Assembly: GCA_025465135.1 (NCBI GenBank)
Contig: JAODNA010000161.1
Location: 1 to 34,773 of the forward strand
Length of the DNA: 34,773 nucleotides
Direction: 5' to 3'
DNA from: Frankiales bacterium
GTDB taxonomy: Bacteria > Actinomycetota > Actinomycetes > Mycobacteriales > SCTD01
The notes beneath the pieces are model-generated. The model was not told the DNA's origin. It was given only the letters and a program-made list of their open reading frames with translations, and searched no databases. Shown here one piece after another: positions 11,148 to 14,773 of the stretch. A program made the position numbers and the translations under genes. The first letter of the stretch is position 1, and every line of letters begins with the position of its first letter.

Positions 11148-12149
11148 TCACTCCTTGCGTTGCCGGCGGAAGTAGCGGTCGACGCCGTAGACGGATGCGG
11201 CGGCGTAGACGTAGCCGACGAGGATGTCGGTGACGTAGTGCTCCCCGGCGTATACGAGGGTGAGAAGCATGGCTCCCACGTAGGTGCCGAGCAGGATGCG
11301 CGTCCGGGCCCGTACGAGGGGCCAGGCGAACAGCAGCAGCATCATCGGGATCGCGCCGTGCAGTGAGGGCATCGCCGCGACGCGGTTGGAGTAGGCCGCC
11401 CCGCGCTCGACCGCGGAGTTGACCGTATGGCCGCCGAGCGCCTTCAGGGTGTCGGGCACGACCCGCGCGACGTCGGGAAGTGAGTGGTTGGCCGGCAGCC
11501 CGGCCATCCACGGCGGCGCTGCCGGGAAGAGCGCGTAGGTGATGAGGGTGATGACTGTCAGGGTCACCAGGGTCCAGACGTAGCGGCGAAAGAGGCGGTA
11601 GCTCAGCGCCCAGAGCAGCACCGCCACCCCGAGCGAGACGAAGAAGTGCGAGAAGTAGACCGGTACGGCGACGACGTCCCACCAGTGCAGGTGACCGGCC
11701 GTGTAGAAGTGCTGCTGCAGCCAGACCGTCGGGACGTGCCCGCCGAACAGCAGCCGATCGCCCTGGATGGGCTCCGTCAGGTGAGCCTTGGTGGTCACCG
11801 CGGGGTTCACCAGGTCCGCCTGCAGCGTCGGCAGGTGCGCAAGCCGGGCGCCGATCTTCGGCGCGAACCCGCGGAGCAGGTCGTAGGCGAAGAGCACCGC
11901 GAACAGCGGCAGCCAGTCACGAAGGACCGCGCGGCCCCACACCCGGACGTTGCCGGCGCAGGCGGCGAGCAGGAAGAGCAGGACCCATCCGGTGAGCACC
12001 TCACGCCCGGTCGGGAAGCCGAAGACCGCGGCCACCCCTGCGAACAGGAGGGTCACCAGCACGAGGAGCTGGCGCCGTCGTACCCGCTCCACGGGCCCCG
12101 CGCTGCGCCACGGGGACTCCAGGTGCCCCCGTATTGCCGTGTCGGTCAT
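11148..12149 (-). CDS. PAP2-superfamily membrane phosphatase/phosphotransferase
   Basis: 333 residues with about seven hydrophobic helices. The PAP2 catalytic motifs lie in the C-terminal third: AAMPSLHGAIPMM (motif 2, His) and GEHYVTDILVG (motif 3, HxxxD). An extra conserved-looking loop, LFPAAPPWMAG, precedes them; this APPW pattern recalls inositol-phosphorylceramide-synthase/AUR1-like proteins, so lipid phosphate transfer or hydrolysis at the outer membrane face is likely. The ATG at 12149 is chosen because TACGCT ends 7 nt upstream; the open frame extends further but through the divergent leuS leader. Single gene facing the coiled-coil pair. Confidence 0.82.
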   Translation of the reverse strand: MTDTAIRGHLESPWRSAGPVERVRRRQLLVLVTLLFAGVAAVFGFPTGREVLTGWVLLFLLAACAGNVRVWGRAVLRDWLPLFAVLFAYDLLRGFAPKIGARLAHLPTLQADLVNPAVTTKAHLTEPIQGDRLLFGGHVPTVWLQQHFYTAGHLHWWDVVAVPVYFSHFFVSLGVAVLLWALSYRLFRRYVWTLVTLTVITLITYALFPAAPPWMAGLPANHSLPDVARVVPDTLKALGGHTVNSAVERGAAYSNRVAAMPSLHGAIPMMLLLFAWPLVRARTRILLGTYVGAMLLTLVYAGEHYVTDILVGYVYAAASVYGVDRYFRRQRKE

Positions 12150-12156
12150 CGCGATC

Positions 12157-12166
12157 AGCGTAGGAT
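12157..12166. promoter_or_regulatory. Symmetric divergent promoter for PAP2 gene and leuS leader
   Basis: AGCGTAGGAT holds TACGCT on the minus strand (12162-12157), 7 nt before ATG 12149, and TAGGAT on the plus strand (12161-12166), 6 nt before ATG 12173. The two -10 elements share TA. TAGGAT is a near-ideal actinobacterial -10. No good -35 is visible on either side. Confidence 0.55.
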
Positions 12167-12172
12167 GCCCGC

Positions 12173-12214
12173 ATGAGCTGCCACACCGCCCTGCTCCTTC
12201 CCGGGCCGCGCTGA
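12173..12214 (+). CDS. Putative leucine-sensing leader peptide of leuS
   Basis: A 13-residue open frame (MSCHTALLLPGPR) with three consecutive Leu codons CTG CTC CTT at 12191-12199. It starts 6 nt after the TAGGAT hexamer and so may be translated from a leaderless end. Its last codons run into the left arm of a perfect hairpin that precedes a terminator and leuS. This is the classical arrangement for ribosome-mediated attenuation by leucyl-tRNA; leader peptides before leuS have been predicted in Streptomyces. Confidence 0.6.
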   Translation: MSCHTALLLPGPR

Positions 12215-12266
12215 CCAGGAGTCCTGTCAGCGCGGCGCCCTCGTGATGCACGGGGGCTTCTTCTTT
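12205..12266 (+). promoter_or_regulatory. leuS attenuator: pause hairpin plus U-rich terminator
   Basis: Hairpin one is GCCGCGCTGAC (12205-12215) paired perfectly with GTCAGCGCGGC (12226-12236) around a 10-nt loop. Hairpin two is GCCCTCGTG (12237-12245), loop ATG, CACGGGGGC (12249-12257), a 9-bp stem with one G-U pair, followed by TTCTTCTTT (12258-12266), unusual for U-richness in this GC-rich sequence and a good intrinsic terminator. leuS begins 26 bp later. A ribosome stalled on the Leu codons would cover the left arm of hairpin one. I could not define a convincing antiterminator pairing. Confidence 0.6.
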
Positions 12267-12292
12267 GTCCGGGACCGAACGAGGGGACAGCG

Positions 12293-14773
<2,481 letters not shown>

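Follow-up and report, generated by a model that had tools for sequence, protein, structure and literature searches.

The window, by which we mean the whole stretch of 34,773 nucleotides that was analysed, carries the leucyl-tRNA synthetase gene leuS preceded by a compact leader (Table 1). Six nucleotides, GCCCGC, separate the -10 hexamer TAGGAT from the leader start codon, and a scan for a -35-like hexamer at the leader promoter found none. The leader ORF (ATG AGC TGC CAC ACC GCC CTG CTC CTT CCC GGG CCG CGC TGA) has 13 codons before its stop, three of them for leucine, and the last of these three is CUU. Five nucleotides lie between this codon and the first paired base of hairpin H1, a perfect 11-bp stem (GCCGCGCUGAC / GUCAGCGCGGC) with the leader stop UGA within its 5' arm. 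The second hairpin, H2, adjoins H1 with a gap of 0 nt and is followed by a U-rich tract. An initial annotation had already placed the leader, TAGGAT and both hairpins, and its coordinates proved exact on direct reading of the sequence.

Table 1. Features of the leuS leader and of the two related leaders in the same genome.
Feature	Position	Strand	Basis or remark
-10 hexamer TAGGAT	12161-12166	+	direct sequence reading; TANNNT spacing kept in homologues
Leader peptide ORF, MSCHTALLLPGPR then stop	12173-12214	+	sequence; kept in homologues; probably leaderless
Leader start codon ATG	12173-12175
Regulatory codons CTG CTC CTT (Leu-Leu-Leu)	12191-12199	+	third is the rare CTT
Hairpin H1, 11 bp	12205-12236 (arms 12205-12215 / 12226-12236)	+	sequence, folding, compensatory changes
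Hairpin H2, 9-bp terminator stem	12237-12257 (arms 12237-12245 / 12249-12257)	+	terminator scan, folding
Terminator U-rich tract TTCTTCTTT	12258-12266	+	sequence, terminator scan
leuS, leucyl-tRNA synthetase, 826 aa, putative regulated gene	12293-14773	+	ORF; LeuS homologues in 41 of 41 relatives
cimA leader MSPATIITRAR then stop (L302)	C167:17454-17535		same genome, outside the window
ilvB leader MRLFVVVS then stop (L303), Val codons GTC GTA GTT	C22:1305-1386		same genome, outside the window

H2 and its tail form the sole terminator-like site in positions 11900-12500 (1 found, 0.2 expected). The 94-nt RNA folded at -48.8 kcal/mol (z = -4.25), and 0 of 200 shuffled sequences were equally stable. 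At the Rfam gathering threshold the element had no match. Weak matches lay far under the cut-off, and T-box sequence and structure models were absent even from these.

Conservation and probable leaderless start of the leuS leader

A LeuS protein search in 40 relatives gave 30 loci, and in 16 of the 23 loci whose upstream region was read the element preceded leuS. A covariance model built from these 16 elements had matches in 192 of 299 genomes of the order, in 119 of 297 of the class and in 11 of 198 of a phylum sample. The last set included one true leuS leader from outside the class (G646); the match in G668 was rejected as a leuS leader and is an unrelated terminator. Directly upstream of leuS lay 169 of the 185 non-redundant elements, the remainder being nearly all cimA leaders or contig run-offs, with two spurious cases (the weak matches L139 and L149 were rejected as such). 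This recurrence before leuS in 169 non-redundant loci puts the element far beyond chance. When named genomes were scanned for the pattern, matches came from Micromonospora, Nocardioides, Actinoplanes, Streptomyces, Kitasatospora, Geodermatophilus, Jiangella, Glycomyces and Knoellia, among other genera. In a minority of relatives (L015, L016, L017 and L018) leuS is present without the element. These four have a TANNNT-like -10 box about 7-8 nt before the ATG of leuS itself, as if the stretch from promoter to gene had been deleted and the gene left nearly leaderless.

In every one of the 168 leuS leaders for which the upstream sequence suffices, TANNNT ends 6-9 nt ahead of a start codon, ATG or GTG, in frame with the Leu run (6-7 nt in 160 of them), as compared with a background of 6/3864 ATG/GTG triplets (0.16%) in leuS coding sequence. 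On the strength of this spacing the leader is read, with good support, as leaderless. The homologous leader LeuL2 of S. lividans TK24 (MRAVRLLLSEPR) is listed as leaderless in the RNA-seq results of PMC8079986. A leaderless leader peptide had been put forward as a possibility in the initial annotation, and both lines of evidence favour it. The accompanying remark that such a design would be unusual does not stand, because leaderless attenuator peptides are not unusual in Actinobacteria and the S. lividans leaders listed in PMC8079986 include several.

LeuL2 shares with the window element its gene, its hairpin with a U stretch and probably its leaderless start, and its 12-residue peptide has the form LLL-x-E-P-R-stop. 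In the window, too, a short Leu-run ORF lies immediately before leuS, with hairpin and U tract between them. The leuS entries of PMC1262725 predict an attenuator before the same gene in S. avermitilis and S. coelicolor, in line with the statement in the initial annotation that attenuation before leuS was predicted in Streptomyces. The leaderless design is thus not new, and for Streptomyces the leuS element has already been described. The sections on leuS leaders in these two sources are confined to Streptomyces, and we found in those sections no mention of a conserved rare codon, of hairpins that abut with zero gap, of a missing antiterminator or of a spread across the class.

The initial annotation had made its compact leucine attenuator before leuS depend on conservation of the Leu codons and hairpins in relatives. 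Both are kept, as is the promoter spacing, and all three speak for that reading. The comparison supports a real, conserved, leaderless leucine attenuator, whose function in the uncultured source organism is inferred.

Putative sensor codons, hairpin pairing and ribosome position

Leu codon 3 is CTT in 99 of 107 leaders, against 0.5% of the 2328 Leu codons of the downstream leuS genes; the 107 leaders are the set found by a model trained on CTT-bearing leaders, which biases this count somewhat. Of the 16 loci that the protein search had identified without the model, 15 have CTT at this position. Leu codon 2 is CTC or CTT in 91 of the 107, and tRNA-Leu(GAG) decodes both of these codons. Codon decoding is a better reason for keeping the rare CTT than anti-Shine-Dalgarno pairing, since the AUC and AUU codons of the related cimA leaders, in which ATT is used repeatedly, cannot pair with a Shine-Dalgarno sequence. 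The kept CUU also offers a natural way to ask which isoacceptor of tRNA-Leu signals leucine starvation.

We compared duplex energies within species and across species for all region pairs of 64 representatives. Clear own-species complementarity was limited to two of these pairs, namely the arms of H1 (t = -4.5) and the arms of H2 (t = -10.8), with compensatory changes in H1 such as CCGTCCTGA/TCCAGGACGG in L011. The H1 3' arm and the H2 5' half paired no better within species than across (-4.99 vs -5.02 kcal/mol), and the Leu run had no own-species excess with the leuS start region (t = +0.9). Two further candidates for an antiterminator were rejected. A duplex between the Leu run and the H2 3' arm (-10.3 kcal/mol) shows no own-species excess, and the ribosome covers the Leu run in either state; a longer H1 that reaches into the H2 5' arm is unsupported by folding before the H2 3' arm is made.

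Folding of 63 leaders with the ribosome footprint blocked gave H1 probabilities of 0.97, 0.84, 0.35 and 0.00 with Leu1, Leu2, Leu3 and the stop codon in the A site. As its probability falls in this way from Leu1 to the stop, H1 is the ribosome-controlled part of the modelled leaders and the one element that responds to ribosome position. H2 stayed at 0.85-0.86 throughout, and the two hairpins are compatible at equilibrium. Before its 3' arm was made, the H2 5' arm was sequestered at 0.15, 0.04 and 0.19 with the ribosome stalled at Leu1, Leu2 and Leu3, and at 0.34 with the ribosome at the stop, whereas in the E. coli trp leader, our control, the values for region 3 were 0.62 with the ribosome stalled and 0.01 with it at the stop. 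Neither pairing nor folding of the representatives detected a mutually exclusive, stall-dependent antiterminator in leuS leaders. The absence of a standard antiterminator pairing, first noted for the window, therefore holds for representatives of the whole set, with a control in which such a pairing is seen.

The spacing of the two hairpins is conserved. In the 169 leuS leaders the gap between H1 and H2 is 0 nt in 129, 1 nt in 23, 2 nt in 14 and 3 nt in 3, while the length of the H1 loop varies widely. At least four U residues occur within 8 nt after H2 in 159 of 169 homologues. One strict criterion, applied alike to both groups, found a hairpin of 9 bp or more abutting 57 of 84 leader terminators and 0 of 37 other terminator-like sites on the same contigs. 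The constant gap and these control sites suggest that H1 acts by lying against the terminator. Moreover, in 138 of the 169 leaders the first H1 base is 5 nt past the third Leu codon, so that a ribosome waiting at CUU would meet H1 at its entry site.

Related leaders before cimA and ilvB

The leuS model also matched nine Ile-run elements before a gene read from its sequence as cimA (citramalate synthase). A model of these Ile-run elements had matches in 175 of 297 genomes of the class, and 74 matches were inspected, of which 65 lay before cimA and 8 before ilvB, with one unclassified. The gap between H1 and H2 was 0 nt in 56 of the 65 cimA leaders (0-2 nt in all 65) and in 6 of the 8 ilvB leaders (0-1 nt in all 8). 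For cimA leaders only the codon run, hairpins and gap were used, as the automatic start choice hit internal starts in a few rows (such as L332 and L336). The codon run changes with the gene, encoding Leu before leuS, Ile before cimA and Val, Ile or Leu before ilvB, and the source genome itself has this one architecture before all three genes, each with a run that suits its gene (Table 1). Members before ilvB are already known as leaders from entries in PMC1262725 and PMC8079986; a literature search on cimA leaders found nothing. In cimA leaders of several families (such as L136, L137 and L148), TGGCA(C/G)ACT stands 6-8 nt before the start in place of TANNNT, as a different, conserved -10-like box.

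Proposed mechanism and its alternatives

We consider leucine-responsive attenuation with a leaderless leader very probable, and it is likely that the element works as a ribosome-mediated transcription attenuator of leuS, with H1 perhaps as antiterminator by abutment. A 70S ribosome would initiate directly on the 5' AUG. With tRNA-Leu(GAG) charged, it would reach the stop codon and cover the 5' arm of H1, H2 would close, and transcription would terminate before leuS. At low charging the ribosome would wait at CUC or CUU with H1 intact just ahead, and H1, standing against the base of H2, would keep H2 from closing readily where the RNA leaves the polymerase and permit readthrough into leuS. H1 would thus be an antiterminator that shares no bases with the terminator. 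The abutment step itself, in which intact H1 keeps H2 from closing, is argued from geometry and is tentative. The state with Leu3 in the A site, where H1 is already partly open when modelled with a 15-nt footprint, counts against the proposal, as do the compatibility of H1 and H2 at equilibrium and the minority of relatives that have leuS without the element. As for polarity, induction is lost when AAAA replaces the regulatory codons LVVI of the M. tuberculosis ilvB1 leader, and in the scheme proposed there a ribosome that has reached the stop hides the antiterminator (PMC13236596); the codon requirement and the masking proposal support the polarity assumed here. The S. coelicolor ilvB leader has the same architecture, and work cited in the discussion of that leader in PMC1262725 found changes of its regulatory codons without effect, which counts against a codon-sensing reading. 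These two ilvB results come from relatives of the source organism.

One alternative is the classical trp scheme, in which a stalled ribosome lets the H1 3' arm pair with the H2 5' arm as a mutually exclusive antiterminator. The E. coli trp attenuator resembles the leuS leader in its codon-run leader peptide, its hairpins and its terminator before the gene, but it has a ribosome-binding site on the leader and a true 2:3 antiterminator, which was detected in the control only; the leuS leaders, then, have the cognate-codon leader and the intrinsic terminator and no detected stall-dependent exclusive antiterminator. Antiterminator and terminator hairpins are described for the leuS attenuators of two Streptomyces species in the relevant part of PMC1262725. 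Mutually exclusive folds are also proposed for the M. tuberculosis ilvB1NC attenuator (PMC13236596), where, as here, branched-chain codons are present (there they are required) and a ribosome positioned at the stop is proposed to let the terminator form, although that leader is longer (166 nt) and precedes another gene. The ilvB-II uORF motif of Corynebacterium likewise combines a branched-chain-codon uORF with a P1 hairpin and a P2 terminator, but its antiterminator is formed by the P1 loop and the 3' shoulder of the terminator (PMC10272879). In the leuS leaders, however, the required partners lack an own-species excess and the H2 5' arm is paired less when the ribosome is stalled than when it is at the stop, the reverse of what the scheme requires and of what the trp control gave, which makes it distinctly unlikely. 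Control of leuS translation, in which read-through RNA would have its leuS ribosome-binding site paired with the anti-Shine-Dalgarno sequence CUCCUU until a stalled ribosome frees the site, may operate in addition to the terminator. Duplexes between the Leu run and the leuS start region have a mean energy of -11.5 kcal/mol, and a stem between Leu run and Shine-Dalgarno is described, in the account given in PMC1262725, for the leuA LEU element, which shares the actinobacterial Leu-run leader peptide but differs by a pseudoknot, by the Shine-Dalgarno pairing and by having no terminator. Any Shine-Dalgarno sequence will pair with any CUCCUU, however, the own-species excess is absent, and the cimA leaders have an identical architecture with codons unable to form such a stem; we regard this reading as unlikely.

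H1 might instead be only a polymerase pause or an RNA-stabilising hairpin, with the terminator fixing leuS at a low level and the leader sensing no leucine. In favour are the statement in PMC1262725 that altering the regulatory codons of the S. coelicolor ilvB leader had no effect, and the folding result, which by itself gives no switch of H2. Without sensing one would not expect the amino acid of the run to fit the pathway in three gene contexts, nor a rare CTT kept at one position, and in M. tuberculosis ilvB1 the regulatory codons are required; we find this account very unlikely. A chance ORF before an ordinary terminator might be suspected in G+C-rich DNA, where short ORFs bearing CTG or CTC are common, but start, run, stop and hairpins kept in 169 loci, together with the promoter spacing, refute it and leave it practically no probability.

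Extending the preferred reading, abutment by an intact H1, to all three genes would make the leaders of leuS, cimA and ilvB members of one class-wide group of leaderless attenuators without a base-paired antiterminator, in which the ribosome-sensitive H1, at zero distance, blocks closing of the terminator at the polymerase exit and one rare codon, CUU in leuS, sets the starvation signal. This generalisation is rather doubtful. Attenuation is taught as a competition of overlapping hairpins. These leaders have no such overlap, and yet across actinomycetes a zero-gap pair of compatible hairpins is kept before three branched-chain amino-acid genes. Antitermination by abutment of H1, if it occurs, would be a simpler design rule for attenuators, and one that searches for alternative pairings would miss. 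For the specialist, the interest lies in the missing antiterminator, the zero-gap hairpins, the kept rare codon and the architecture that leuS has in common with cimA and ilvB.

Three minor features of the leaders were also seen. The motif T[GT][TC]C[CT]GG occurs 3-28 nt past the terminator stem in 55 of 169 leuS leaders and in 0 of 169 control stretches downstream, and the window has a copy, GTCCGGGACC, at about 12267. A stop at codon 5 (TAG) is present in 9 of 169 leuS leaders; in these, and in short cimA leaders, the stop can fall just before H1 and not inside it, where a ribosome would still hide most of the H1 5' arm. Finally, CTC-N-TG (CTCGTG, CTCCTG, CTCATG) is a frequent sequence at the loop side of the terminator 5' arm in many leaders of leuS and cimA, across families.
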